64,000 bases of DNA from Trichaptum fuscoviolaceum. Lineage: Eukaryota > Basidiomycota > Agaricomycetes > Hymenochaetales > Trichaptaceae. The position numbers and the translations under genes are program-made. Numbering within the stretch: the stretch's first letter is position 1; the number at the start of each line of letters is the position of its first letter. The notes beneath the pieces were generated by a model. It made no database searches, was not told the origin of the DNA, and saw only the letters and a program-made list of their open reading frames with translations. Below are positions 29,220 through 49,913 of the stretch, piece by piece. The stretch is from contig CAJSYZ010000012.1 of NCBI GenBank assembly GCA_910574455.1, forward strand, positions 179,317 to 243,316, in the 5' to 3' direction.

Positions 29220-29364
29220 AGTGGGTAGAGCCGTCCAGCACGTTATGGCGAAAGCGGCACACTTGGAGGTGAATTTCTGGAATGTGAAGCTTATTAGAAA
29301 ATATGTAGATAGGTACATCAAAGGCCTTTGACTGACAAATGAAATCTGTCAGATATTATCTCGG

Positions 29365-29870
29365 CATCACCGTCCCGGCGGAAATCTGATAACAGCCTTG
29401 TAACACGCTTATTAGTGCATTATAAGCCCATATAACACCCTAACATGTGTTATAATATTTTTTTCCCTGATAACTGTCCTCAAGCAAGGTTACAAGTGTA
29501 TGATAACGTAGTTACAATGTATGATAACCTTATATATAATTACAACACTCTCGTAATGTTATGAACGATTACAACATTACATAATGGTTACCGATCGATT
29601 GTAATGAAATCATAAGGCTTATCGGGACTTGTCATATCCAAATAAGAGTTATTAAAGGGATAACACTTATTCTGTGTTACAAGTAGCTTATAAGTGGCAT
29701 ATAACTATTAGAGTGACATGATAACCGTCTCCCAAGCTTGCGACTATTTTAGGTATCAGACCGGTCACGTGGTGTTATAAATGACGCAGGATATATTTAG
29801 AACACATATGTTTTAATAACATGACATGTAATATTTGTCTACGCTGTCATAAAAAGATCTACATATAATG
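29365..29870. repeat. left terminal and subterminal repeats of the large transposon
   Basis: Starts with the inverted terminus CATCACCG, followed by many short TTATAA, TTACAA and ATAACC words, likely transposase binding sites. Confidence 0.6.
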
Positions 29871-29899
29871 GAATAAAAAATAGACGTCGGATCGGAGGG

Positions 29900-31907
29900 C
29901 TAGTTGCTACGAAGTGCATTAAGAATTTCCGCTGCCACACCATCGCCGTCGCCGTCGCGAGGAGCATGGTTGCCAACGTTGTCGGAACTCATATATAGAT
30001 GCCTAGCTTCGCATCAGTAACAAGTCCGGCAAAGACATATTTGAGCACTTACACATTCCAGATACCAATGAGGCGCTTCAGACTGACCGCGTCAAAATGG
30101 CGAAGTGTATTGACGATGTGGTCATATAGGTCAGCATACGTGTGACCCTTTGCTCCGGCGTGAACCGACAACTGGGTTTCAGTAGTGAGCGCATAGCGGG
30201 TCTGACAAAATATTAACAAGAAGGACACCTGACCTAAAGTACTGACACTTACCAGTACAACTGTATATGCAATGAATGGAATGGTAACCGACTTTATATT
30301 GAACTTCGCAATGAGTCCTCTATTGCTGCGTCGCGCAGAGCGAACCTTTTCTTCGCCAGCTTTCAATCCGAATCCAAGTACCGTTGCAACCTGTATTAGA
30401 GCACAATATTAGATAAAGAACACGAAGAGAATTATTCATTTAATGTAGAGGATACTCACTTGCAATAGTAATTCGGACTCCAACCATCCGACAAGCAGGT
30501 CCTTCGGATCTCCCGTCACCAGAGCTATCTCGTTCTTGTACATATAAAGACCGTAGTCAATTGTTGACATCAATATTTCGCCTTCCTTGATCTTCCTAAT
30601 AACCCTGTCCCCGAAATCTTAAGTGAATGTGTCTTACTATGGAGTGATAGAACTACGTACTCTGGATCATTAACATTGAGTTTAACCAACACGAGAAGAC
30701 GCAAGCAATGGTCATGCTTGAGGCCCCGTTCTAACTTGTCTATCGGTAAGGCGGGCACAAATTTGTATATGCCACCAATGACACGCTTGATGTTTCTAAC
30801 ATCGTCTGTGCGCGCGTCGTTTCGGCCTTTATTAATCTAACATATGAATATGCGTTTACGAGACATCAGAAATGTGCCATACAAAAGAGTGAGCAGCTTA
30901 CTTTACTACAAATGGAATTGAAGTTGCCTTGCGCTAGCCTTTCTCTGATGTCCGGGATGATTTTCAAAATCTCCTCGGCAGAGAAGGCAGCAAGCCGATG
31001 CCTTAATGAAGGAGATATTACCGTATGAATAAACAGAATTCTGAATTAGAGGGCTTACTCTTCCGTGGTGTCCGGGTCATCCAGGTCAACGTATAGACCT
31101 ATGTCGAAGATATCGAACATAGTGTGGGTAAGATCAGCGAAGCGGACGCAGACCCTACCCCTACTAACAAGACTTCGTTTAACATTCCTATGTAAAGCAT
31201 AAATTGAAAGATAACACGCATATGTATTATTGAGCATGAGCTTACCTGACTTTACGTTTGCGCTTTCCCTTTCCCTTATCCTCGACCTCTGATTCGTCTT
31301 CGGACTCCGTCTTAGACTCAGTGCCCGGCTCATTCTCTGTTTCCGTCCCTGTCTCCGACTCCGACTCCGTCTCGGACTGGCGTCGACGACGACGACGCTT
31401 GTCTTTGCGTTTACCCTTGCCTTTGTGCTTGTGCTTGTGCTTGTGCTTGCTGTTGCTGCTGCTGCTGCCGCCGCTGTTGCTGCTGCTGCTGCTGCTGCTA
31501 CCGATGTTGTTGCTGCCGACGCTGTTGGAATTGCTGACGCCGTTGGAAAACGAATTACCTTGGGTCGGCGCCGCAGACGGACCTCCCGGGCTCACGACGC
31601 CGGGCGCAGAAAGACCTGGGCGCACCGCAGAGGGAAGCCGCAAGCTCTGCAAAGGGTCATCAGGTAATTCATCCCATTGAGAGCCCGACCCGCCATTATT
31701 AGAGGCGAAGGGACTGGAATGTTGGCCAAATCCGCTTGGAGTGGATCCAAGTCCTTGTACATTACCTTCCGGACCATGGGGACCGAACCCATCGTACCGC
31801 GCAGGTGTCGACGGAATCCGTCCTTGGCCTTCGGTGCGTGATCCGTACGCGAAGGATGGTGTCGGTGTCGGACCTTGTTGTCCAAATGGGGAACGATGGA
31901 AGTTCAT
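29900..31907 (-). CDS. DUF6698-like protein (transposon cargo)
   Basis: Model: complement(join(29900..30002,30053..30201,30253..30390,30460..30604,30661..30836,30902..31001,31059..31187,31246..31907)), 533 aa. All eight exons join in phase. The first about 220 residues are low complexity: Ser/Asn-rich, then a KHKHKHK-type basic stretch, then a Glu/Ser-rich acidic stretch, suggesting nuclear or nucleic-acid association. The rest shows the order of conserved blocks I associate with DUF6698 of Agaricomycetes: RVCVRFADL, KGRNDARTDDVRNIKR, HDHCLRLLV, GWLESELLLQ, then VTIPFIAYTVVLTRYALTT. Function is unknown. It lies downstream of the Spt5-like gene on the same strand within the transposon and shows no disabling mutation. 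Confidence 0.72.
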
Positions 31908-32403
31908 CGGGGCGGGGGAAGGCGGGAGTCGGTGATTGTGAGGCGGAGATGAATGTGGGACACTTCTAAGAAGCGACGGAGGTGCTAAAACGGGGCGTTT
32001 ACGTTTTTATGGGCGCTCCGAGGTTCAACATAAACAACACGTCAACAAAACAACACGTGATCGCGACGCGTCGGACTACACTTACGAATTTTACTTTATT
32101 TGGTATTTTCCGCATGTCTCGACTCGGAGTTCTGTGCATTGTTTGGAATTAGTAACTTGTCTTTTAGTAATTGAAAGAAAATGTGACTTACCTGACATTG
32201 AGTCCAGAAATCGGTCGGTATTGCAGCTTGAATACCCACATTAATGTGGTCGAGTCTTACCTATGCTATCTTGTCATCGACATTCAAAACGAACTTGAAG
32301 TCCGAGTCGAACAAAGACAATGATTAGGGAAGAAATTGACATTACATTGTAACTACATAAATACATATAAATTATTACAGTCCGAGTCCGTCTCTCTTAA
32401 TGT

Positions 32404-32909
32404 CTATAATGCAGGGGGGCCCGCCTGTACAGTGGTTACCCGAGTGACACTATCTAATGGATACAATTTCGCAGCCTTTTTCTTCGCCTTCTCATCCAAG
32501 GTACAGAAAGTCCCCGTCCGTGTCTTCCCTTCTCGTGCCGAGTGAGAGGGATACACAACTCTCCCAGAGTCTTCACCTCGAATTACCAACGCCAGATCGC
32601 CCTTCTTAAGACCAGGAATGCAAGTTTCGAGGCTGAGCAAGGGAACATATTCGTCCTTCATTCTCAGCCCATCCTGTGTCCTATACGTCAGGCGTACGTC
32701 TGCCATTCCTCTCCGAGCCTGCGTTTCCATCGTCGTCCATGCCATTTTCCCATCGACTCCCCGCGGACTCTCGCAAGCCGCCTTAAACCTGAACACCACA
32801 TGGTGTGTAAGGACAATTTGCGAGAACCACTCACTGAAGACGAAATCGAATGGCGTCGGTTGTGTTGGCGGTCTCGCTCGATTGCATTCCTGCCTGACAT
32901 TGCTAGGCC

Positions 32910-32944
<35 letters not shown>

Positions 32945-35172
32945 ATCGTGCTCGTGTCCTCCGCGCTCAAAATGTCCGAAGGAGGTGGAGGGGTCACTGC
33001 CCTGCGGGTCCTTGGACGTCGTTTACCGTATAGGTGGTAGTAGACTGTCCACAGGGACGACAAGCCACAGATACCCGGGACCGGTGGTCCGTCGAGATAG
33101 TGACGCGTTTTCCTGTATAATAACTATGAGCATTGAGTCGGTCTTGAACAAGTTTGACACTTACATTGATATGCAATGAGTCGCAGGAAAGTGATATACT
33201 CTCGCCGAATTGTCGAATCGTACAAGAGCTTCACCCTTTGCATTCGTGCCCACAAACTCCCCGAACTTCTTGAACTTCGCGTCGCCACCAACGAAGACGA
33301 TGTGGTCGCGAGTCGGCAGGGTGTCAATGTATCGAGGCCCTGGCGCCATCACAGCCGAGTTAGCCTTGTCTGCGTCTGTGACTTTCCGCACCGTCGCGAA
33401 CCCCTGGTCGACGTACGTCTTGAAGCGACGCTTAATCTCGTCGATCTCAGAGACGTGCTGATGATCGATAGTCAACCATACATCGCTTGGTTTGTAGCCA
33501 GAATTATGAGTGAAACAGCTAGAATAATGAGCTAAATAACTTACGTCGCGATCAAGTCGGATGCTGCAAATGCAGACCGCCCATGCATTCCCTTGTGTTC
33601 TACAAGGAACTGAGTGCCATCGTTGACACCCACCACGCGACCAAAACGAAGCAACGGTCGCACGTACACCAACTTATACATGGCTGGGTGCAATTTTTTC
33701 CCCCCTCCAGCCTTCATTGTTGCGATTGTTGGTATGTTGCGCATTCGCGAGCTTTGCACGTCCGGTATCATGAACGCTTTAAGATAGCAAAACTAAAAGG
33801 ATAGTCAGAAACTCGTTAATATCACAATATCGAAACACGCATACCGTTTCGTTGGTTTCGCTGTCCACGAATGACACTTCGCGTTCTTGTATGTCCACGA
33901 CAATGCCACTATGTCCTTTCAAGGGACCCATAACGCACGAAATGGTGTCCCCGACGTTGAAAGCTCTCTCGAGTTCAACCATGGAGACCTCATTTTCACT
34001 TCCGTCCGAACACAAAATACGGACACTTTCGTTGTCCATCCTCTTCACGACACCGTCCTTTCCTTTCAACGAACCGCTTGTAACTCTCACCGGATCGGCG
34101 ACACGAAGCAGGGTCTTATTTGTCTCGCGCAGTGTGTCGATACCCGCCATCGTAAAGAATACGAGTTCGTGCGCAGTCGGATCGCAGTTGTTCACGAAGT
34201 GAAGTCCTTGTACGTTGAGGACGCGCAGTCCGTTGGACAGATAGACCACGTCTCGAATACGAAACGTGCCTTGGATTGGACCGGGGACCAGCTTCTTATG
34301 CCCAAGGGCGCGTAGAGCTTGAGGGGACCTCTCGAGACCTCTGACGGTCGTTTCTGATCCGTCGGGCCAGATCCTTGGAACGACGGCCAAGCAAATCTCA
34401 TCCGTGTCTTTCGACGAGTTGATGACCCGGCCGACGTCACCAACGTATCGTCCTTGACGAATACGGACCCAGGAGTTCCACTCGAAGTCGGCGTTGGACT
34501 TGTTCGTCGTCTTCAGTCGATCCTCCAAAAGTTGTCGATCAAGGGCACCCAAAGGCAGAATTGCCCGATGGACGTAGGCAGAGCTGATCGCCCTCGCCCG
34601 CAAACGGATGAGCTCGTCTGCCGCAATGTCCGACGGACAGGAGACATATACTCGTCCTTTGCCCCACGGAGTTGCAACAGCGGTCATGAAGTCATGTAAT
34701 ACTTCCTTCATGCGCTTTGCCGTCATCTCTTCCTTTCCGACCTATAGCAACGTTAGGAATACGGCTGACATAGATTACAATTGAAGAACTTACGCGTACA
34801 GGCACCACCCACCAAGTGCTCCCAACATCTGTGTCGCCCAACGTACTAGTAGCTGGCTTTGTCCTCAGAGACACAAACTCTGCCAACAGCCTGGCTTCGT
34901 CTGCTTCTATCTCGTTCGCAGCTCAATCTAGATATTTGACGGTGAATTCTGGCGGTCGTATATCGTCAAAGACTTCGTCTTCGACGACGAAAGGCACTGT
35001 AATCCATGTCAGAATAGAATAACCATAATTAACTTCTAAATTGACCTTCATCGTCCGACTCTTCATCCGAGTCCTCATCACTGCCGACATCCGCCTCGAG
35101 GTCGAGGTATTGCGCGACAAGGTGGTCGACACGTCGACGTTTCGTCGGTCGTTCCAATTCTATGTCAGACAT
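32404..35172 (-). pseudogene. Spt5-like NGN/KOW protein with a premature stop
   Basis: Model: complement(join(32404..33112,33165..33485,33545..33792,33845..34741,34794..34996,35046..35172)), 834 codons. The start has a basic patch (RPTKRRR) and an acidic stretch, as in Spt5. An NGN-type domain (about 98-165, WWVVPVR ... GKGRVYVSC) follows, then at least three KOW-type motifs (VRIRQGRYVGDVGRV, LKGKDGVVKRM, LKGHSGIVVDI) and a last one near the C-terminus (VIRGEDSGRVV). Spt5 is the elongation factor that clamps RNA polymerase II. This copy is shorter and lies inside a transposon, so it is a mimic or derivative rather than the housekeeping gene. An in-frame TGA at 34923-34925 falls between the acidic region and the NGN domain, and I found no intron that removes it. 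Everything downstream is open, so the break is recent or bypassed by an internal start. Confidence 0.75.
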
Positions 35173-36042
35173 GTTTCAGGTCGAATAATTTATTTTCAGA
35201 GCTAAGAATGAAAATGAATCGCACTTCTTAGTGCGCATCTTACTCGTTGTCTCTCACATGATCTTACAGGTTAAATTATAGATAATTATTTGAGCTTCAA
35301 TAATATGAATAAAGTCTGAAATAATCGAGATAGCAAATTAGTACAACAACTGACACCCGACGACGACGACGACGACAAAACTCTCAAAGCGCCCTTCCCA
35401 ATTTAGTCGATGATGGGGGAACGGAAGCAAAAAGATTCCGGCAGATTCCGTATGGTGCGTTGACTTTGGCAAGTGCGGACCACCGTGAGACTACATGTCC
35501 GTACTAGTAGGAACTGGTACTGGTCAGTTCTCACCATTCTGTTTTAGGATCTCATATTCACACAGTGCTCCCCACTTGCCAAAACCCGCGCACCCTTCGG
35601 GTTAAGCCGAACCTCTTTTGCTTCCGTTCATCGTCCATCTCTCCTTTCGGATAGGGGTGAGGGCGTCGGCGACATGGGGTAGACAAGGGTGCGACACAGG
35701 TAAGTAAGACATTCCTGCTGACTCTGGATGACTCACTAACATAAAGGACATGCTTGCAGCAAGAGCGGAGGAGTTGGAGGACTCATTTTTTATGATGAAC
35801 GAGCTCATCAATAAAGGGGAGGGGGTTCGGGGTGAAGTAATTAAATAATAGTAAATTAATGTACTGTAAAGTTGGTCAACAGTGAACGACTGTTGAAATT
35901 TACTACAAATTGTTGGCTTGCAAGAATTACAAACGTGGAAACGAGAGAGGAATGAGAGACTCGGATAGAAGTAGAAAAATAGATGGGAATTGTGTGGACA
36001 GTGAATAAATGGGAAAGAAGTTATGCCGAGACAGTGAGCTTG
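35173..36042. other. spacer between the Spt5-like gene and the transposase
   Basis: No gene is seen. There is a short GAC microsatellite at 35358-35376. The stretch at 35420-35760 contains no supported frame. This is the region into which both minus-strand genes border (5' side of Spt5-like, 3' side of the transposase). Confidence 0.5.
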
Positions 36043-38947
36043 CTAAAGTCGTGCTCGTGGTTCATTGTCAATGTCAAGGTAATCTTCATCTTCACCTTCG
36101 CCTTCATATTTGTATTCATCTTCTTCTCCAGATTCAAGCTCTACTTCTTCATCTAAGTTATTGAGTTCGGCGTTCGCATTTGCGTTGGCGTCAATGGACT
36201 CGTCGTCTTCGAATTCGTCCGTGTTGCCAAAGAGATCGACTACTCCGTCAGTCTTGACTAACGAAGGAGGGGCGCGAACAGAACTGTCGACGTGACCGAC
36301 GCCTAGCCCAATGTACCTCATGAACATATCGCGGTCAACGAATCTGTTCAAGACATGATTAGTTACTCGTGAGTTTTTTTTGCGTCGACTGTCTTAGTAC
36401 CTATTGACGTAGAAATTAACATAGTCTCCTTCTTCTGGGCGGAACTGCGACTCCGGTAGAAGGTCCATTGTTCGCCCAAACTCATAGGCCGGAATCAAAT
36501 GGCAGCCTCGAATCACTGTTGCAGGATCAACGAAGCCGAATGGCTCGTCCTCTCCACCGAACGGGACGAAACCAACGCGGTCAAGCTGGTCGTATGCATC
36601 CCCGCCTTTCCATTCGGGATCGAGACCAAGCCAACGAACCCACAAGAATGCAATACGTTCCTTCTTGGTATTGGTAGGTGCATGTGTGACGTTTAAATGA
36701 TAAATGCCAACGACTCTTGCATACCAGAACGGATGTTCACTGTCATCCTCGTAAGACGGGAGCATATATCGCACTTGTCGCCGACGGCCTTGACAATGTC
36801 TCGGTCCCTTCGTACATCGTAAGTCGTGTAATTAAATTGTGCAGTCGCATGGGAATATATTGAGTCGTGTTCAATCATTAGCGATTCCCGATCCTCGAAA
36901 GTGAAGGGGAGATCCTCTTCAGCAAGATCCATGTGGTGTAGACGTGCGAGACAATGGTTCTTGAGACGACGTATGAAACTCTATGTCAAATGTGAGTGAG
37001 AGAAACAGTCTTTTAATTCATTGTCTATCTTACCTTGCATGCGGGCTCATTGGAGTTATTTAACAGCCATGGATGCAGTCCGACTTTGTTCTTTTCTTCC
37101 TTGCCAATCACACAATGCATCGTAAGCTGTGCCTCATTCTCACTCGCACTGGCAGTACGAGTTCGCACGTCACCTTTGACAAGAAGAGGTATACCAAGAG
37201 ATTCAAGGATTCGGCCTTTCCAATGCATTTCATTGTCGAATGAATCGATTTTCACTAACTGGCCGGTAGCGTCTACTTTGGATGTCGACTTGTATCGACT
37301 TTTAGCACGACGGTGTTCGTGTTCGCCCTGTGAAATGCATATGCTGATGAGGTGAGTTATGTTCGAAAAAAGAAATGGCGTACGATTTGAGTTGAATAAT
37401 TGTCTGTAGTGCCCGAGTACTCAATTTCAGGAACGTAGTCTCCTATGAAATGGACCTTGGGCTTAGTGAGTGAGAACGTGAATTTTTTGCGCGATGGATT
37501 CTGAACAGTTGTCGCAGCAGAAACGGCTGTGGGTTGCCCACCGAGAGGAGCCAGTGTCATGGTGTCCGATGCCCTACCTACGCCTTCGCGTCGTGCTTGA
37601 GCACGGATCCTAGACTGAGCCTCCCTCGCTGTTTCTTTAGTGTCGTAATGCGGACAAATGTTCCGTTGAAAGTTTCGCAGCTCCTGTCCCAAGCGCACCG
37701 TCGACCGCCTTAACAAAGTTAGTGTGAGTTCAGTGTGTAATCGGAGTTTCGCTAATCCATGCCAGGTCAGAATGACGAATAAGAGGGTGCTGATCGGCTT
37801 GTTATGATTGTCCTGGAAGAGCCCCATGAAACAGGGAATTGAACACTGAAAGATCGTCAATCGATAGCCAGTAAGTTATTGCATTTCTCGCACCTGTAAT
37901 AGGTCCTCGAAGTCCCGTGCGGCTAACTTCTTCATCTCACTAACGTTGTCAGAGAATCGACGAATCCCGTAACCCGAGACACCGAACGGAGGGGCAACTG
38001 CGTATCTACGCACACCGTTAGGATAATGAATTCGGTCGATAGGGTTCAAATTCTGACAGTTAGCTTTACCCCCTTAGGGGTACCTCTTAGATAGGGACTC
38101 AGAGGGGTCTGAGTGCGTGCTAAGTGGGCCCAAAATCCGTCACTATCCCAAAGACTTAGTTTGGGAGTCCCACAAATTCTTTGGGATTGCCAAAGTAATA
38201 AAGACTATTGGGAATCCCATTTCATGGTAATTTGGGACTCCCAACGCGGATTTGGGGCACCTAAGTATTATGGAGTTGGGATTCCCAAGGAACATGTATT
38301 TGGGAATCCCACAATAGGCTTGCAAGCCAGCCATTAGTGTAGTGTTGTAGTAACGGCTGGTACGACTCAATCAGAAGTGGCCGAGTCACCACAATTTGAC
38401 CGATTTGGTGTTGTCTTCCATTCACAAGAGCCTCCACAGCTTGGTATTTCTTTAAGAGACAATTCCTGTGTGCAAGCAAGAGCTAGAGCAGATGAAGCTT
38501 CTTCGTAAGAACAATGCAGATGATGAGGCGCTGTTTTGTGATATAAAGATCTCCCAGCAAGAATGCAGAGAGCTTGAGTATGAGTACATGAATGAGGTTC
38601 TTTGGAGGCCGTGCTCTATCAGCGATACGGAAAAGCAAAGGCTAAGGATGTTACGACCTGGGGGGAACCTGGGGGCCGGGGCGCGTTAGCGGCTTCCGGG
38701 GCAAGGCCTGGGAGAGCACGCGGCAGCGGAGAAGGCGTGGGGAACCGTTAAGGACGCTACAACGCTAACGGAGTCGCGCAGGGAGCGGGGCTACGGGGGC
38801 GAGACGCAAGGGGGCTCGAGGCAAGGACAGGACGGAGTCAGAGTCGAGGCGAGGACCCGGGATAGGAATATCCCGAAGCAGAGTCGAGGCGCGGGGAAGC
38901 GCACAGAGTTCGCGGAGCAGAGGATCACGCGGCGGGATTTCAGGAGC

Positions 38948-41941
38948 AATCACCCAATGGTGTATCTTCTGAAAATAGCCCATATTATCGGGTGAATGAT
39001 TCATTCGGATGAATTATTCACATGAATCATTCAATATTATATAGATAATAGTATACATTTTATGGAAATCATTACTGAATGAGTCATGAATCATTCACAA
39101 GACAGCAATTATAATATTTGCAATTTAATGAATATAACCTCATGTAAGTATATTTTTTATACAGTGAGCTAATTGGAGGTAGACAGTCTCGGGCTCGCTC
39201 GATGGTGATAAAGGTGATACCATCTTTGTCAGATGCCGAGTTTAGAGACCATCTTCCTCACGCGCGTTCCGCGTGTGCGTGTACAAATCAGCATTCAGAC
39301 GTGCCTCCAGCTTCGCAAGCATCACAAACAAATCGACGCCAAATTTCACCACGAACTGCGGACGCACCCAATGTGCCTGGTGGCCCAACATACGCCATTC
39401 GTGTCGCGCAGAGTACGGGTCATGCTTTGCAAGCGGTGTCGCTTTTCTGTTCTTCACGTTCTACTATGAGAATTCTGGCGAAGCGTGCTGTGTATTGTTT
39501 TCGGGTAGAGGCGGCACTCACCTTTCTGTCGATGCGCAGTTGAAGAACACATGTGTCTGGCCGTAGTTCATGTTCTCCGATATGGCTAGTACAATCGTAT
39601 TCTTAGAAGTGAGATGGCCAATCGTGTGCATATGGATAGGTAAAGGAGAGGATAACAAATTAGCGGGAAATGTTGAGATGTCTTAAGCAGTGAAATGTGA
39701 CGCACTCTCTGCCTTTAGTTAAATCCGCTTCTCCCAGATGCTCGCAGGCCCAGCACAAACCACATAATCGTCCTATTTGTCCCTACCCCATCATTGCCCA
39801 TCCTGCGCCATTGCGACTGCGCTTGTGGGACACCCAGGTGTTCCGTATGAGCATGCGGCGTTCCTAAGCGAAGTCCATCGTCAACACTCCGAGGAAAATA
39901 CAGTTGAAGACTAGTCTTCTAGATGCACAGGAGGGAACGGTGGCGACATAACGTATGAAAGGGAGGGAACATCGGAGGAGACGGATGGCGAGAGGGACGT
40001 GGCGCTCAGGGAAGGCGGAGACGAGGAAACAGTGCAGTATGCTCGCCATGGCAGAGGCTCCTTGTCAGGATTGAGGACATGAAAAAAGGAGAATCAGTAA
40101 GATGGCGAAGATAGTGAGAATAAGAGACTTACTTTGATATCAATGGGGACATCAGAGTCTTCGAACATAGTAGGAAGAACGGAAAGAAACAAAGGAAAGT
40201 CCGAGTCGACGGCAAACGCGCCTTTCGTGTGGTACACTGGCAGTGGCACGGGATCACGTGACACGAACACTCGGTGACCACTGACCACTGGCCACTCTGC
40301 CTTTCGCAAGACACTCTGTCACGAACCAAACTGGGAAATAAGGCACTGAACTGGGATTTTAGCCATTACACTAAAAGAGCCATGTTGTCAGGTTACTGAC
40401 AACTGTTCCCAGCGCTATTTAAGGTGTTCAAACATTAGGATTTCTCCAAATCCTAATATTACCTCCCTCTCAAAGACCCCCTCCCGCCGTCGGGAGAGGA
40501 CACCTTCTCGAAATAGCCGCCCCCCACCCATTTCCCTTTTGGGTGTAAGCCAAGGAACAGAGAGGACCCTCCGTGGCAATATTAAGAATCCGTCATTAAT
40601 ATTGCACACCCCGGGACTTGAACCTGTGACCTTGTTAACCTGACAACCTGTCACGAACCAAACTGGGAAATAAGGCACTGAACTGGGATTTTAGCCATTA
40701 CACTAAAAGAGCCATGTTGTCAGGTTACTGACAACTGTTCCCAGCGCTATTTAAGGTGTTCAAACATTAGGATTTCTCCAAATCCTAATACACTCCTTCG
40801 CACACGCAGTCGTCGTATGTCCCAACCTCTTCCAGCTCGACATCTCACTCTATGGCCGCGGCTCACCTGAGCACCAGACGAAGCACGCGACGCCGGCACC
40901 TTAGCCTTGTTGCACTCAGGACCGTGGACTCGTCGCTGAAGCTCGCCAATTGGACCGACGAGCATGTGAGTCAAAGGTTTCCTCCGAACATGGAGTCTGC
41001 TGATCATTCATTACTGCTGTTCAAGCCTGCCGAAGGTCAGTCTGAACTTCCAGTCTCGTCCAAAGATGAACTTCACTAACTAGCTGTTGTAGAACTCCAG
41101 TCACTGCGCTCTTTGGAGTTGGAACGGGAACCGGCGCCTGCGCTCCTCAGTTGATTTCTGCGTCAGTATGGCTCATCTTTGGAATCGCTTTTCTATTCTG
41201 ACATGCACTGCGGCCGTCGAGGCAACTTCAATACACACCTGCGATCGCTTACGGGAATTCAAGCTCGAAAATGCCTTACCGTCACCTATCGCTTTTAATC
41301 AGCTCCCGACAGGTGTCGAACACATGGCATTCTCAGCTGGCCGGTCACTGTGAAGGAATCGCAGAACCTGGCGGCGGTTACGGTTCAGCTTTGGGATGAA
41401 GGCGAGAAGCATCCTATGTTCACAGTCTGAAGATCGCCTATGCTATGAATGGAGTAGCAACCCGGAGCACAAGCTATGTACAGCGGTTCCGTGCAATGGT
41501 TGTGAGTGATATATTTGTACTCATATTTTTGACAATCCTTTACTCATTGACCAGCAGCGTGGTGTTCCGATCCTTATCACCACATTCCTTTACTCAAGGA
41601 AACCTGCGAACTTGCGCACTCTGCTTTATGTCACCATCAACATGATTGACGCCTGTAAGGCACCTCATCACAAATGCACAGAATCTGATGGGAGGTTTTA
41701 TTCCCTCACTTGAATCATTCACTAAGTCTGTGAATCATTCCTTAGTTTTGCTGTAAATATTATACTGGTTATGGAATTTAATACAAGTGAATGATTTTGT
41801 GCAAGAACTATAAATTGAATCATTCATAAAAATCACTCATCTGAGAAAATCATTCACATCCTTCACATGAATCATTCATCTGAGTGAATCATTCACCCGA
41901 TAATATGGGCTATTTTCAGAAGATGCACCATTAGGTGCCTG
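38948..41941. mobile_element. hAT-like element inside the solo LTR
   Basis: Flanked by an 8-bp direct repeat TCAGGAGC (38940-38947 and 41942-41949). The ends are inverted repeats of more than 50 bp, sharing ATCTTCTGAAAATAGCCCAT and continuing through ATTATCGGGTGAATGATTCA. The terminal few bases are imperfect. GAATGATTC words repeat over about 200 bp inside each end. The 2.99 kb contain a TRIM-like insertion and unrecognised sequence with short open frames; no transposase is seen. Confidence 0.82.
40317..40790 (-). mobile_element. TRIM-like miniature LTR element
   Basis: Two 142-bp direct repeats (40317-40458, 40649-40790) that I read as identical flank 190 bp. A 5-bp target duplication CACTC flanks the whole (40312-40316, 40791-40795). 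On the minus strand each repeat starts TATTAGG and ends GTTCGTGACA, and a purine tract (GAGAGGGAGGTAA) precedes the 3' repeat, as in LTR elements. The minus strand also carries a tRNA-like A box (TAGTGTAATGG) in the repeat and a B box (GGTTCAAGTCC, 40615-40625) in the internal part. It has no coding capacity. Identical repeats mean a recent insertion. Confidence 0.8.
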
Positions 41942-42207
41942 TCAGGAGCGGGAAATCTGGAGCGGGGGATCTTACGCGAGAATCGCGACCGGGAATCTCA
42001 GAGCGGGATTCTTGCGGGAATCTCAGAGCGGGATTCTGGCGGGGAACTCAGAGCGGGATTCTGAGCAGGACTCAAGGCGGGATCGCAGAGCGGGATCCGG
42101 GACAAGACAACGACAAGAGAGCCAGAGAGCGGACGTGCTCAGGACGGGAGCAGAGAGCTCTGGGTAACCGGGATCTCAAGGCAACACTTCTGTATCAGGA
42201 GGAGGTT

Positions 42208-42292
42208 CCCTAAGGAAGCACTCGACAAGTCAGCATTGTAAAACTACACTAGAGACAAGACGGAAACACACCTAAGGAAGCACTCGACAAGA
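42208..42292. repeat. short insertion with local duplication in the solo LTR
   Basis: CCTAAGGAAGCACTCGACAA occurs twice around about 40 bp of sequence absent from the other two LTRs. Confidence 0.6.
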
Positions 42293-45004
42293 GGACAAAA
42301 GTGAGTGCTCCTTACGGTGGCAACAGGTATTTATCTACTGGGCAGAATCTACAGGGAACGGGCATGCGCAAATGCGCAACTAACTAGTTACACAATCTTG
42401 CGGGCGAAGGCCGCGCATATAGTGACGTGAATCCGGGAACCGGGATTTGGTGCGGGGAACATCTGGGCAAGATCTAAGGGAACGAGCGTGAAGCATGGTC
42501 AAGTGAAACAGAGAGAACTAAAGGAATGTAATTGTGTGCGAGGTATCGAGCTGGCGCACAGGCAGCGGGGTAACGAGCGTGGGGGGCGGATGTAATGCAT
42601 ACATCGACTTGGGATAAGTTGCAGGCAACTTCTGGCGTGGATCAGGGTCGCGGGGGATCGACAGGGACCAGCCTCGAAGAGGCCAGTGCTTCGATGTCGT
42701 AACGAAGCCTAATCGCGAGGCGCGCGCGGGGCAGGGCGACTAAGGACGGGGTTCGAGTCCTTGCGGACAATGAGATCAATCCCGCACATGGGGTGGCGGG
42801 AACGAGGTCTGCGGGCCGGGACGGGACGCTACTAGCGAGACTAGTTGGCTGGCACGTGCGTGGCCAGGCCAATCACCTGGGGCTATCTCAAGACGGGGTT
42901 AGCATCGAGGAGCAGGGAAGCTAAGGGGTTTCCCGTGGACGACGGGAAACCAGCAAGATTCGCGACGGGATTCGAGCGGGGAATCGAGACAGGGTTCAAC
43001 TGGGAATCGAGACAGGGTTTGATCGGGAATTGTAGCGGGATTCTTTCGGGAATCAGAGCGGGGACTTAGCTGGGGTTGCGATGGGAATTGCGACGGGATC
43101 GAAGGCGGGAATCCTGCGGGGGATTTGCGCAGGGATCCGAGACGGGACGCGAGGCAGGAAACGAGCGGGATTTCGACTGGGATCGTGCGGGGGAAAGGAG
43201 CGGGATTCCAACCGGGAAGCGAGCGGGGTTTCTACCGGGAATGAGCGGGGGAGTCTGGCGGGACTCTAGTCGGGAACAAGCGGGGGGAGTTTGGCGGGAC
43301 TCCAACCGGGAACGAGTGGGGGGAGTCTTGACAGGACTCCAACCGGGAACGAGTGTGGGTTGCGGGATTGTCAGAGGGGACGCTTGACAGTGTTCGCGGC
43401 AAGGCGGGATTCCTGGCGGGGCAGGCTAGGGATGAGCGAGGGCAGGTCGAGAGGCACGGGATGTCGAAGGGGTTAGCTAGGGCACCGCGGCCGGACGAGC
43501 GCAGGGCAGGGTTCATGACCGGGCAGGATTGCGGGTTAGCAATCCTTGACCGCTGTTGTGTTGGCTTACTCAAGGCCAGACAGAGGTCGGCTTGGGACGC
43601 AGTGGATCAATCTCCTAACTGCACTTCATGACTGTGGACGCGAGGCCGGGATCTTGTATCCGGGCATAGTCGAGAACCTACGAGGTCTCGGGATAGCTAT
43701 GGCTATGGCTATGGCTGTGGATATGGTGAGTGACTTCGGGACTATGGCGAGGTATAGGGTTTGCTGGAGCGGGGGACAGAGCATGACGGGAGCAGGGAGC
43801 GAGCGGGGGATCATCCTAGAGTCGGGGGAACGACAAGGCGGGCTAGGGATGGATCGAGACACGGAAACGAGGCGGGGGACTGACGAGGAGACGTGGGCAA
43901 GGACAAGCAGGGGCGAGGAGGTTGTAGTGGGGCGGAACTCTTTAGCAGGAGAATGCATGGCGAAACAGAGGTTCTTCCGGGATCAGAGAGCGGGGGATCC
44001 TTTCGGGATCTAGCCAAGGTCGCAATCCTGGGTTTTGGTATACGGGATTCTGTTCGGGATTGCCTTAGACATGTTGGGGTCCTGGGGGATCCCGACAAAG
44101 GATGATCAGTTTGTCACTGACGTCGTAGACAAAACACAGCACCTTCCGAACTGGCGCTCTAGGCAATGAGTAGCCTGTTCGCAATTACAAATAGCAAGAC
44201 GGTCTTGCTCGTTCTGTTGCACAAAATGAGTGCGGAAGCAAGTATTGCAGTGCCTGCTAAGGCTGCAGATCGAAGAGGCAGAAAAGCGCACACTTGAACT
44301 ACAGATGATTCAAAAGTTTCCCATTCTCATTGCCGTTTCAAAGAAGGGCTCAGGCAAGACAGCACAACTCTTGCAGTACCTTCACAAGGCCGTGTACACA
44401 GCAAATAGGTAGTCCTTCTCGGAGCCGGATCTTGCTAGTTAATTTGCATTAATTATTGATGATGCTCATTAGCAAGCATTAAGTACAGACATTCTTCGCT
44501 GATTCAATGCATTCCAATTTCCCCACAAGCAGGCTTTGACAGCACTATATAATCTCCTTATTACTATATTCACTGTATTTTTAGTTACTTAACCTTAATA
44601 TATATCTCTTACCCGTTGTTGGGATTCCAAAATTCTACTGTTCAAGCGCACAACCTTTGGGATTCCCATGTTTAACCACGCATGTAGACGTGGGATACCC
44701 AAAGATGCAATGGGAGTCCCAAATATAACTTGGGTGACCCTCGGAAAGTTTTTGGGTTGTCCAAAACATACTTGGGAGTCCCTGGTGCGCATCCAGGGAT
44801 CCCAAAATATGCTTGGGATACCAAGGCACTGACATGGTATCCCCAAAAAATTGCCATTGACTTGGGTTTCCCGGTAGTTCATCATGATAGTGTGCAATGA
44901 TAGTATGATCTTATATGCATTCCCTCTTGAGGTGCAAGCAACTATCTATGTAGTAATATATGAATATAAACCAAAAAAAAATGAAGGAAAAATAGACGGA
45001 AAAT

Positions 45005-45103
45005 GACTGCACATAGACGGACTCGAACCCATGCAAGAAAAAACTAATCATAGAACAATTGAATTTGATTAGAACAAGAACGTATAACCATTACTCCAGT
45101 CTT
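45005..45103 (-). other. tRNA-like remnant
   Basis: The minus strand has a perfect B-box sequence GGTTCGAGTCC (45019-45029) and an A-box-like TGGAGTAATGG (45088-45098) about 80 bp upstream. The stems do not pair well enough for a working tRNA, so I read it as a tRNA-derived (SINE-like) or decayed sequence near the right end of the hAT element. Confidence 0.35.
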
Positions 45104-47599
45104 CCTCTGTTCATGACTTAATTGTGAATTTATATGACAATCATTGCTACTAGTATGATATTACACTCTTCTACGTTGACTTACATATTACAGTACTTAT
45201 AAATATGTCATTCTTTGGGTACCCCAAGACATATATGGGATATCCAACAATAACTTAGTTGGGATACTTACATATTTTGATGCCACTTAGGGCGCACTCA
45301 GACCCCTCTAAGTTACTATCTAAAAGGTATGCAAGAGGGGGTAAAGAGTACTGAATTCTGACCTGCTATTAACTTGACGTATGTATTCGTCTCCTCGTGC
45401 CTCCAGAATTCTGATCAAATGCGCAAACACATTCTTGAATAGTCCGAGTTCAACCTCGTGCAAAAGATCGACACGAAGCATCTTGAAGAAATCAAATCCA
45501 TGATCTGAAAGCGTGGCGGAGAATGCATTCTAGACGGCGAGTTGTCAGGACGGGTGAAGATTTAAAAGATTGCTATACTTACCTCCGTTGGAACCAGTGA
45601 GCGCCCTTTCAATAAATTCTCTACCGCAGCACTTTTCAATCCGAAGCCATTATTATAGACAAACCGTCTGGCGCTTTGGATATCGTATCTATATGCGTCG
45701 TTGTCTTTGCGAGCATGTCGAATACGATTCTTCATGTCAGTGACCATGCCAAGCTTAGGTATCGATGTCTTTTCCACCAGACAGCGCGGGCAAGGGCAGT
45801 CCCCGTTGTCCCGGATAGTCGATATTAAGACTCTAATATCGAAAGTTAAGCAGGCAGAGCTCGGGAAAGTTAAGTAACTCACTTCTCTGGATAATCTGCA
45901 GAATAACTAAAGATTCGCGGAAAGATTCGGCGTGTAACGCCATCCGAGCATTTCAGTACAATGCCATACCGGTAGGCGTGCAGAAACTCTTCGTCTTTAA
46001 GGAGTTCTTTCCATGCTGCGTGAAATAGCTCACGGCGGCAATAGGCAAGCAAAGCTGATGAGGCTGACTTCGAAGTAGTAAGTTTTGCTATGACCTCTTC
46101 CACCTTTTTCTTTAACTATTGCATACATCATTAGTATAACGCATCGGAAAAGGAATGGGAGACCCTCACAGATGGCAGATAGGCAAGGTGGAGTAATGCC
46201 CGATTACCAGGCTTCGCGCGTTCGTACTTCGACTGATTTCCAAAGGCCATATAGATAGGCCACAATTTTGCCTGTCCAAACTCTGCAAGATGGGTTGAGT
46301 CGGACCAGAACATCAAGCCTGCGATCGCTCGAGGATAACTATCAATTTCGTTATCCGGTAAGACGATTTTCTGTATGTTTTGATGTTCTTCTAACCATGA
46401 GTCTGACATGTAGAGCTCATCATAAACTCTACTTGGCGGGTCCATCGATCCTGGTCTTGACCACCACTGGCAATATGGTTCGAAATTGAAATCCTTGGCG
46501 GCCGGCGAACCCGTAAAGACTGTGCGTATGAGAGGTAGTATCGGGCGGTACCAAAAATCATTCACTTGGAATTGGGTATTGGCAGCAGTATCTTGTGTGA
46601 GTTATCATTCTCTTGTCCTTTTAGATTAGACGGAATATCAATAGTTAAACTGCCCTTGCGCCAGCCGTGCTTTCCTTCCTCCCATGGCTTGCAAGAATCA
46701 GCCGTCTTGTCCCTTAGAGCATCGAAGTTGATGTCTTCGATGTCTTCGTCATTTATAAGTGGGCTAAGTCGAACAGTTCGGAATAGGCTTGACAAGGAGG
46801 TTGTGACCCGGTTGTAAATAGAAGTAAGGTGAGCAATTCGGAAGGCTGATAAGTTCGGATATGGGCTGATAGTTTCTGCGATAGTCTCTTCTAAAGTCTC
46901 GTCATTGCTTTGTGCGGCGCCTGCATGGTTGGGAATCGATGTCGGCTCTGACTGATATTCTCTCCATAGCCCAAAGGCGTTTGCAAGTGTTCTGCGGACA
47001 AATTGAGTGGCCGGCTCTGGTTCTGGTTCTGATTCTGGCTCAGGCACGGGCATTGGCATTGGCATTGGCTCTGGCTCATGCTCATGCTCTTGATCAAGGT
47101 CCGTTGTCTGCATCTCCTTTGCAGCTCTTTCTAACGCTTCCCTTTTCAGTTTCGCAAGTCTTCGGGCTCCTGCGTTAGACAGCTTTGGACCTTCAGGCTG
47201 CCTTTCAAGAATGAGCCGACTTGGGCGTTTGACGCGATGGCCACGACCCATTGGAGGGGTGGGTGCGCGAGGAGGTATGCTGGGTCCATCTAGGTCCATT
47301 TCCATAGGTACTGACATGTCCTTATTTTAATTAACGTGTCAATCGCGTATGCTTCAACAAGATGAGACGCGACGAACCTCAATTGTGGGATCGGATAGCA
47401 TGGAGACTACCTGTCGCGCCGCCCTTTCCCTTTCCTCAGCGAGTCTGTCTTGCTTCTCCATGAACTCCTCGTGCCGACGCTTGAGTCCAAGTACTCGCAA
47501 TTTAACGCCTTCACAATTTTTTTGATGGACTGTGTAAGCCCTTTGAGTCATATGAGGGCCAGGATTCCTGCATTTTGGTGCAGTGCAGTACATAGTGTG

Positions 47600-48091
47600 A
47601 TCTTGTGTAGACAGTCGTTTACTGTGTGGTAGTACAGAATAAAGATTTTTAATGACTTTGTGAAAACTTTAAGGACTGATTACTCTGAGACATATGAGAC
47701 ATGCCCCCACTGTCGGAATCAAGGTCCGGTTCCTGACAGCGTGCTTAAGCTTAATATATTATGCCGCTCCGATAACGGCGTTGTAACTTGGTCATAACAT
47801 TGAACCGACATTACAAGGCTCGAATAAGTCTTACGATCCCACAAAAGGGTCTTAGATCACTTGTCAACCCGTTATAATGCTTTTCTAATATTATCTATGG
47901 TTGTTAATTTGTAATTAATGTCATATAATGTTATGGACGCCTTGTAATGGCATTACAAGTGTGAAATAAGAGTTATTTATTATTATCATACGGTTACAAG
48001 TAACCAAAAGGGCTTATAGACGCCTATAAGGCTATTACAACTGTCCGCAAGGGTTACAGTGTTTCGCAACATTTCCGCCTTCCCGGTGATG
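47600..48091. repeat. right terminal and subterminal repeats of the large transposon
   Basis: AT-rich with repeated TTACAA, ATTACAAG and CTTATA words, ending in CGGTGATG, the complement of the left terminus. Confidence 0.6.
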
Positions 48092-48652
48092 GGCACATTG
48101 ACAATCAGCCTACCCTGTGTAATATCATTCAGCGCGGTCAACCCCACAGATGAGTAAAGCAGCGGGTTTAGGAATCCGAGAGGCCGCTCGTGCGCAGTAA
48201 TGAGTCGATCGTTTAGAAGCGCGATCACGCTAACGACCGCTGGCGTGGCTGTATTGACATTCACTCCTTCGACGAATAACCCATTTAGTACAACCTGGTA
48301 GAAGTTGTCCTGGGCAGAGATGTCTGGGTAGCCACGCCCCGCTCTGTTGAACAACCCGGCGTTTAGGGCTCCGATGTGTGTGAGGTAGCCACTCACTGCG
48401 CTGAGTTGATAGTTAGGCCGTAGGAAGAGACTAGAAAACCCGCCTGAGGAAAGGTTAGCACCGGTTTCCGGAGAGACTCCGGTTGTTGCACTGACAGAAG
48501 TGTTGAAGGGACAGCCAGCAGGGAAGGTCGGGACAAACATCGTGCATGATGGTTCACCAGAGGGCAGAGATACACCGACACCACCACTTCCCCATGAGTA
48601 AAGCAACGAAACTCCTCGTACGCCGAGCTGCATGGCGGTGTTGCAAAATTGG
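48092..48652 (-). pseudogene. sedolisin copy C, exon 4 only
   Basis: Positions 48114-48652 correspond to exon 4 of copies A and B (539 versus 542 nt). They keep the splice acceptor before CCAATTTTGC and the donor GTAGGCTGATTG. The protein still shows NTAMQLGVRG and NTATPAVVSVIALLND, with the Ser position again Asn and the oxyanion Asp replaced by Ser. Exons 1-3 are absent upstream. Intron 4 is cut by the large transposon at 48092, and I could not find exon 5 on the other side. More diverged than A and B, it predates the 4.2-kb duplication. Confidence 0.85.
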
Positions 48653-49913
48653 CTGTACATCAATGACCACAAATCGACTGGCGTATCGAGTCGCTTCCTA
48701 TTCAGTGAAGTGTTCGAGGATGTTCCGAATGGAGACGAAGGAAAGAGCAACGATCTCTCCGAGAACAATATCTGGATGTAGATATGAGTCTGTCGGAGGC
48801 TGGTTCTGCTCAATGTGTACAAGCCACGTCATAGGCGACAGCGTGAAGTCTTGTTGGCATATCCTTGGCTTTCTTAGCGAGATCATACATATGCATGAGT
48901 GACCCATCCCGGGCTTGCTTTAGTATCTGTGGTCGAAGATTGAGGTGAGTGAGGCACGAGTAGATTGGATAATATGCATATGCGTACGCACGTTGAGTGA
49001 GTCAGAAGTCGATATTCTGTTTGAAGTACCAGCATCATGATCTGCCATCTACTCCTGTAGTTCTAGTGTAACAATGGGTCCTTTAAGGAAAACAGGAGTT
49101 GTAGGGGGTAGAGTGCGGGGAATAAAGACGTAGAGAATCGACGAACAGCAGTCATCACTCCATGAATATATGTATTGTTTCGCTCTTCAATAAAAGCGTA
49201 TACGGGTTACCAAGTTCAGTTGTGTCGACCTAAATTACTAGACTGCTAACCTCCTTTTTAGCTATCTAAGAAGATCAAGAACCATTTGCATGCGATAAAG
49301 CAACCGAGATGCCATTGGCATACTGTACTTAGCAGTTAACATGCAGGAATACGAGTCTCCCAGATTTTTCTTGCATTGACATAGAAGACAGTCGATGAGA
49401 ATCATGTTGAGTTGACTGAACGTTATTCTTCTTTGCAAAAAGCATGACAGTCGGGAGAAATAAAGAAAAGAAGAAGCCGTTACGTGAAAGAGACTGCCGA
49501 CGTGCCGAGAAGCCAAATGAAGTAAGGCGGCACGGTCGGTCTGCGAATGGCGTCATCCGGCCGAGGATCACTGCTCATTGATTGGCTGATTTTGTTGCGA
49601 GCTGATGACGACAGGCTCGGAATTTCTCGCAGGGGTGTCCCGAGCTCTGGGCTCTCTTTACTTCCAAATCTTCTCTTTTCTCGCCGACTGTCATCCTTTT
49701 TGCAAAGAAGAATAAATTAAGTTCCTCCACTTCTAATTTGAAATCTAAAAAGACAGCTTTAGCGATTCTCTGCCACTGGCAGTGCCGAATTTCCGGTGAC
49801 CCAATCGGCCTGCAGGTATTAGTATTTATTTCCTCTTCATTTCCAATATCATGATCGCCGTTGACGACAACAAAGATCTGCATTTATTACCGACGGAACG
49901 CCCGATGATGCTC
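48653..49913. other. intergenic stretch with a fold-back repeat
   Basis: An open frame at 48698-48907 (minus, ending SIRNILEHFTE) is not recognised and may be a piece of another gene. At 49423-49473 and 49670-49716 lie inverted arms of about 45 bp sharing TTCTTCTTTGCAAAAAG and ATGACAGTCGG, about 200 bp apart. No other gene is seen. Confidence 0.5.

Follow-up and report, generated by a model that had tools for sequence, protein, structure and literature searches.

The 64,000-nucleotide stretch of the Trichaptum fuscoviolaceum genome analyzed here (C12:179317-243316, hereafter the window) contains a Plavaka transposon whose transposase gene is accompanied by two other genes, one resembling the elongation factor Spt5 and one encoding a DUF6698 domain. 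This locus raises the question of whether these two genes belong to the transposon and, if so, what they do for it. We searched one genome, 59.1 Mb in 12 contigs. The element belongs to a three-gene cut-and-paste lineage of PlavakaB type. As the best explanation, held with moderate confidence on the basis of sequence comparison, we propose that the Spt5-like protein of this lineage would be an element-borne elongation or anti-silencing factor, and the DUF6698 protein a second transposition protein.

The window copy of the transposon occupies 29365-48091, with ends CATCACCG...CGGTGATG. Its left terminal inverted repeat (CATCACCG...GGCGGAAAT, 29365..29385, plus strand) pairs with the right one (48071..48091, minus strand) over 21 nt that are 81% complementary. 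The flanks read ...GG/CATCACC and GGTGATG/GG..., where the slash marks the element border, giving a 2-bp target-site duplication GG at 29363..29364 and 48092..48093. Subterminal arrays rich in TTACAA/TTGTAA lie at 29365..29814 and 47642..48091; the outer 2 x 450 bp contain 14 copies of this motif, compared to a mean of 1.2 and a maximum of 7 in 500 shuffles. The inverted ends and the matching arrays, both reported in a first-pass annotation of the window, were thus confirmed, and the same end pair was found again on C8. Folding of the left-end DNA gave no information.

Using the outer 396 and 392 bp of the element as queries, we found both ends together at one other place, C8:3811435-3835722, which is 99% identical and flanked by the duplication TG. 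Four elements of 1.0-1.2 kb on C9, C11, C2, and C12 also have both ends, with duplications GA, AA, TA, and TA. A diverged relative, C6:350586-361975, has ends that agree at all 18 bases compared, a GC duplication, and 8 copies of TTACAA/TTGTAA (shuffled mean 0.8, maximum 4); it encloses all three genes in the same order as in the window. Duplications of 2 bp were therefore present in seven of the eight elements examined (window, C8, C6, and the four short copies). In the main text of Kojima 2025 (PMC12730594), PlavakaB transposons have ends of the type 5'-CATCA..TGATG-3' and duplications of 2 or 3 bp; the transposase domain, end sequence, and duplication length of the present element match that description.

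The first-pass annotation had given the element a length of 18.7 kb. This had to be corrected: the segment 38058-45353 is an unrelated nested insertion of 7.3 kb, bordered by the 9-bp duplication AATTCTGAC at 38049-38057 and 45354-45362 and located within the transposase gene. Because it is missing from the C8 copy, the element proper measures about 11.4 kb. The window copy is damaged by this insertion and by small frame-breaking indels in the transposase gene, as well as by an in-frame stop in the Spt5-like gene. Those small lesions are missing from the C8 copy, yet it has an insertion of its own near the same site in the transposase gene; this 12.9-kb segment (seen in the region C8:3803001-3843000) has TG..CA ends and a 5-bp duplication ACGAC and is like a long terminal repeat (LTR) retrotransposon. 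The two copies differ by 72 substitutions over 11,435 alignment columns. CpG-type transitions account for 38 of the 72, with 27% of C/G bases in CpG, a pattern such as methylation would give.

Three co-oriented genes lie between the ends, as originally described, all on the minus strand and each with domain matches; their exon borders were inferred by hand from splice signals, without transcript support. The transposase gene (36043..47593) is split by the nested insertion and has further frame breaks. The Plavaka domain PF18759 exceeded its cut-off in two of its exons (E=1.7e-17 and 6.6e-9), and the remaining six of eight stretches scanned gave no relevant Pfam match. Regarding the PlavakaB motif, C(2)C plus H(3-4)H between the second D and the last E, a CPRC, a candidate for the C(2)C part, is visible in 45565-45906. 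The Spt5-like gene (32404..35172) has six exons (35046-35172, 34794-34996, 33845-34741, 33545-33792, 33165-33485, and 32404-33112). The DUF6698 gene (29900..31907) has eight (31246-31907, 31059-31187, 30902-31001, 30661-30836, 30460-30604, 30253-30390, 30053-30201, and 29900-30002), encodes 533 aa, and is open in the window copy; it matched PF20414 at E=1.1e-33 with 117.2 bits, the family cut-off being 23.7.

We further examined how often the three genes occur together in the genome. Four window exons served as transposase queries, and the best 115 of 335 candidates were scored. Among the matches listed, all 15 loci with more than a transposase fragment had the transposase, Spt5-like, and DUF6698 genes in this order and co-oriented. 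These were the window, C8:3834k, C11:32k, C3:3541k, C7:2561k, C8:4267k, C8:3184k, C3:4359k, C1:152k, C6:352k, C1:579k, C8:2327k, C9:922k, C8:2457k, and C9:3116k. Five single-exon transposase fragments of 44-63% identity (C9:2707k, C10:760k, C7:1503k, C7:3673k, and C5:2395k) had neither an Spt5-like nor a DUF6698 match nearby among the matches listed and were left out of this count. Three sister Plavakas (C12:1453k, C6:644k, and C3:33k; 40-42% identity) have a DUF6698 gene in divergent orientation. The remaining Plavaka matches of this search, 27-30% identical to the query, and the bulk of a wider Plavaka search (best 123 of 834 candidates) were outside the partner counts.

In two diverged families, those of the window and of C6, matching ends with target duplications enclose both the Spt5-like and the DUF6698 gene. 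Together with the order and strand conserved at 15 of 15 loci, this supports the earlier proposal that both genes belong to the transposon. It also rules out a host gene merely duplicated near transposons, a reading further countered by the host Spt5, a single separate locus where the C-terminal module described below was not found. The refuting observation named in the first-pass annotation, Plavaka copies with ends that leave out these genes, was made only for the short deletion derivatives and, judged by location, for more distant Plavakas: the sisters, which have DUF6698 but no Spt5-like match, and the 27-30% lineages.

For DUF6698, all 37 candidates of a genome search with PF20414 were scored, and the 42 matches merged into 19 loci. 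Each of the 19 is no more than 25 kb away from one of the 18 transposase loci of the group or its sisters, and for 16 the distance is at most 10 kb; in 2000 uniform random draws, the number within 10 kb averaged 0.12 and did not exceed 2. Of the three loci beyond 10 kb, two belong to the window and C8 copies, which contain nested insertions. At C3:4345070-4352190, two matches to complementary parts of the domain lie about 6.4 kb apart on one strand (C3:4345k and C3:4352k) and are probably one gene split by an insertion. Given the sister Plavakas, DUF6698 may be the older partner. A protein database search with the DUF6698 protein gave no relative at E≤0.001, and no paper on DUF6698 was found in the open literature. 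TNPA of En/Spm is a binder of subterminal repeats, and by analogy the DUF6698 protein might be a second transposition protein of the lineage that possibly binds the subterminal TTACAA motif.

The Spt5-like product is about 833 aa long. Its intact form was read from the C8 copy, whose exon 2 is without the stop and whose last few residues are uncertain in the model. In Pfam, the C8 protein matched KOW at E=2e-10, and KOW5_SPT5 and KOW4_SPT5 were over their cut-offs; the Pfam NGN model alone did not detect the protein. Against a set of solved structures, the best 14 of 20 matches were Spt5 chains. A profile (A1) of aligned exon-3 translations from 17 of 24 loci matched residues 214-505 of the SPT5 chain 5oik_Z at E=3.8e-37, a region that we take to comprise NGN, KOW1, KOW2, and KOW3 of the human chain in order. 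The same order of NGN and KOW domains was seen against the host Spt5 (C6:895k), the only locus with a Pfam NGN match. In Spt5, the NGN-KOW1-3 core sits on RNA polymerase II. The SPT5 matches end at about residue 424 of 833, none covering the later KOWs or the C-terminal repeats of Spt5. Because the host-type C-terminal half is unmatched, the gene is, as judged from its sequence, an Spt5-derived paralogue and not the Spt5 orthologue. A protein database search with the Spt5-like protein, in which scoring covered the 7997 candidates with the most words in common, yielded no relative at E≤0.001.

Profile A1 also matched the plant RDM3 chain 8hyj_W at E=1e-11, far below the Spt5 chains, which raises the idea of a silencing adaptor of the Spt5L/KTF1 type, known from RNA-directed DNA methylation in plants, that is employed by the element or directed against it. 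KTF1 has Argonaute-binding GW/WG repeats; the present protein has one GW/WG in 833 aa. An Argonaute hook was therefore rejected, and we regard this adaptor reading as highly improbable.

The sequence before exon 3 completes the start of NGN (W.V.VR/GKE, with the intron at the slash), and the intron there (34742..34793, minus strand, phase 0) agrees in position and phase with one in the host Spt5, as judged by manual reading. This position was common to the host gene and all five element genes compared (window, C6, C11, C8:3522k, and C5:5362k), of which C8:3522k and C5:5362k are Helitron-associated. Given this homology and common position, the Spt5-like gene descends from an intron-bearing Spt5 gene and was captured with its introns. 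A retro-copy origin was rejected on the same grounds.

In place of the Spt5 C-terminal half, the element protein has a module of its own, encoded by the exon 32404..33112. Over the C-terminal 150-170 residues, the window protein and a Helitron-associated protein are 40% identical (E=4e-45), and the module lies within 4.5 kb downstream of 44 of the 53 Spt5-like loci; at the host Spt5 locus it had no match. A Pfam scan of two Helitron-associated C-terminal stretches identified no domain. The module was also seen without an Spt5-core match just upstream at C7:5405k, C12:144k, C9:4255k, C12:449k, and C5:4443k.

To place the Spt5-like genes among transposons, 87 of 107 candidates of a genome search were scored, so that family counts are lower bounds. 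The 103 matches merged into at least 53 loci, of which five were weak (E about 7e-4) and short. Besides the host gene, 52 loci comprised 15 with Plavaka, 27 with Helitrons (within 20 kb of a Rep domain, PF14214), 4 with KDZ elements (within 4.1 kb of a KDZ transposase), and six without assignment. Uniform random placement (2000 draws each) gave means of 0.63, 0.67, and 0.18 and maxima of 4, 4, and 2 for Plavaka, Helitron, and KDZ, respectively; chance proximity was thereby rejected, under a model that ignores transposon clustering. The association with Helitrons and some KDZ elements goes beyond the first-pass annotation. One of the six remaining loci, C4:2149k, lies by eye about 10 kb from another Plavaka match. 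By eye, a PIF1 helicase match was present within 12 kb of each of the 27 Helitron Rep loci. A same-strand Spt5-like gene lies within 20 kb in 23 of the 27 Helitrons and within 10 kb in 18.

One Helitron family showed a spacing of about 8.4 kb between Rep and the Spt5-like gene in seven of its eight copies and of 15 kb in the remaining one. Helitron-associated copies on C11 and C8 were 99.5% identical over 2.8 kb, extending about 2 kb beyond the gene, which shows only that the gene lies in a longer repeated unit. From this spacing and repetition we infer that the gene is carried inside the Helitron mobile unit, and likewise for KDZ. Of the 27 Helitron-associated Spt5-like matches, four were weak and on the opposite strand (C1:1262988, C4:3360637, C4:3561004, and C8:2045608, each 4.2 kb from the Helitron Rep); these four Helitrons also hold a stronger Spt5-like gene, and the weak match is possibly a second, diverged gene.

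The occurrence of Spt5-like genes near both transposases and rolling-circle Rep-helicases would fit a direct part in the transposition process, such as a link to replication or to chromatin at the element ends. However, Plavaka and rolling-circle elements have no transposition chemistry in common, whereas all need long genes transcribed under silencing; this argues for a role in transcription, and we consider a direct role in transposition quite improbable. The recurrence of the gene beside unrelated kinds of transposon suggests that it helps their expression.

We next considered selection on the gene. In exon 3, the ratio of nonsynonymous to synonymous substitution rates (dN/dS) was 0.12-0.46 in seven of eight pairs, the eighth being saturated; the pairs included Plavaka copies, Helitron-associated copies, and one KDZ-associated copy with an unassigned relative. 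Between the window and C6, the proportion of synonymous differences (pS) was 0.61-0.88, near saturation, in the transposase (4 exons) and DUF6698 (3 of 6 exons) genes, and 0.00-0.33 in four Spt5-like exons. In 100-bp steps, identity was 77-92% across 33.6k-35.5k including introns, and 42-70% at both gene borders. The window and the diverged C6 element also have in common a nearly 100% identical tract of about 780 bp (32765..33542) that includes exons and an intron, with identical runs of 146, 185, and 434 bp and breaks that are chiefly differences in microsatellite length. The tract points to a recent exchange or gene conversion, and the identity pattern as a whole is what would be left if diverged elements had exchanged the Spt5-like gene, perhaps on two separate occasions. 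In a tree of 24 element Spt5-like sequences and the host Spt5, Plavaka and Helitron copies intermixed, with weak ultrafast bootstrap (UFBoot) values of 49-77 at deep nodes. The dN/dS values and the exchange tract suggest that the gene is a functional, exchanged module, like transposon-borne TET/JBP.

These data also bear on the possibility that Helitrons and Plavakas picked up the host Spt5 by chance and carry it as a passenger without benefit. Helitrons do capture genes, as stated in the text of Castanera 2014 (PMC4289320), and an Spt5-like match is missing from the sister Plavakas and from some Helitrons. Such passenger capture appears improbable in view of the dN/dS well below 1 in seven of eight pairs, the one C-terminal module common to 44 of 53 loci, the place and strand conserved in all 15 Plavakas, and the recent exchange tract.

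Under the favored explanation, the Spt5-like protein would travel with RNA polymerase II along its own element, where it would replace or add to the host Spt5; the polymerase would thereby pass long, intron-rich, silenced element DNA, and transposase would be made despite silencing. Bacteria have specialised NusG paralogues for long or foreign operons: RfaH, LoaP, and the plasmid-borne ActX serve long, often horizontally acquired operons. The likeness to the present gene lies in a NusG/Spt5 paralogue dedicated to long operons; the difference is that those are bacterial. Specialised Spt5 paralogues exist in eukaryotes also, since a report on Paramecium (PMC8934623) describes a development-specific Spt4-Spt5 complex that acts on non-coding transcription. 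A broader proposal, which we advance tentatively and with some doubt, is that transposons of three unrelated superfamilies, Plavaka, Helitron, and KDZ, share and trade a dedicated elongation factor of Spt5/NusG type with which they promote their own transcription across silenced chromatin, as a eukaryotic counterpart of bacterial RfaH/LoaP, with DUF6698 as a DNA-end-recognising second protein of one Plavaka lineage.

The same protein features might instead indicate a host-directed modulator that competes with the host Spt5 genome-wide by dominant interference and disturbs transcription-coupled silencing, not aiding its own element. The polymerase-binding core of Spt5 is kept, no match to the Spt5 C-terminal half was found, and many Spt5-like copies are present per genome, all of which are consistent with competition. 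Broad interference with an essential factor, however, would be costly to the host, and we judge such a modulator unlikely.

Several observations weigh against an element-borne elongation factor with a second transposition protein. The three sister Plavakas had no Spt5-like match among the matches listed, so the gene is not required for transposition as such. A same-strand Spt5-like match was absent within 20 kb in 4 of the 27 Helitrons and within 10 kb in 9. Solved structures offered nothing convincing for the DUF6698 protein (best E=0.6), and a single-sequence structure model of Spt5-like exon 3 reached a mean predicted local distance difference test (pLDDT) score of only 35.5. The highest dN/dS, 0.46, came from the pair C11 and C8:2461k. 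The random placements, being uniform, ignore the clustering of transposons. The eighth element examined, C11:23-34k, had putative ends only, an exact duplication was not found, and it was left out of the count of bounded elements. Finally, neither full copy of the window family is intact any longer, and the family may therefore be dead.

The nested insertion at 38058..45353 is outside the transposon's own gene set. It has 95-bp inverted ends (78%), and we take its layout to be like that of a Mutator-like element (MULE); no transposase was recognised among the three open frames scanned. Within it, 76-bp inverted ends (91%) at 38951-39026 and 41862-41937 may delimit a further element of about 3 kb, a 149-bp direct repeat lies at 40310 and 40642, and degenerate GC-rich repeats of CGGGA type, partly with a spacing of about 35 bp, occupy 41940-44110. 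To the right of the transposon, an open frame on the minus strand (48094-48828) by eye resembles what is presumably a sedolisin/tripeptidyl-peptidase fragment; it extends into the transposon end and had no Pfam match at E≤0.01.

Comparison with described systems indicates where the present lineage is distinct. In the main text of the PlavakaB paper (PMC12730594), families occur with or without a TET/JBP gene, and KOW, Spt5, and DUF6698 are absent from that text; KOW and Spt5 are likewise absent from the main text of PMC12810828. We found no description of a transposon-borne Spt5 in the open literature, a scope outside which subscription papers and Repbase reports lie. According to the main text of Kojima 2025 (PMC12730594), TET/JBP genes have moved between superfamilies of fungal transposons, Plavaka and Helitron among them, and are presumed to act against silencing. 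The likeness is that of one regulatory gene across unrelated superfamilies, with gene order conserved within some families. The difference is that the present gene is a paralogue of an elongation factor and has 52 loci in this genome, compared to only three TET/JBP matches (C3:5436k, C8:4k, and C9:1761k), none of which is near the 18 listed Plavaka loci. A second comparison is offered by capB, present in HELPO1.2 of Pleurotus ostreatus and in other basidiomycetes. It is a gene without known function that lies downstream of RepHel; RepHel has the same orientation in the species listed apart from A. mellea, in which the gene is at a scaffold end (text of PMC4289320). Like the Spt5-like gene here, capB accompanies a Helitron RepHel; no domain is recognised in capB in that text. 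Relative to the host Spt5 and eukaryotic SPT5, the element protein has NGN and the first three KOW domains in order and the intron position in common, and differs in having no match to the C-terminal half and a C-terminal module of its own.

Among chromatin genes that pass between superfamilies of fungal transposons, TET/JBP is the best-described case that we found. If the favored explanation is true, the Spt5-like gene would be a second traded gene, acting at elongation rather than at DNA methylation and far commoner in this genome (52 versus 3 loci), and the question would arise whether transposons carry their own polymerase-processivity factors against silencing. DUF6698 gains a home, as 19 of 19 matches in this genome lie in or beside these transposons, and the Spt5-like family may identify unnamed Helitron-captured genes of mushrooms.

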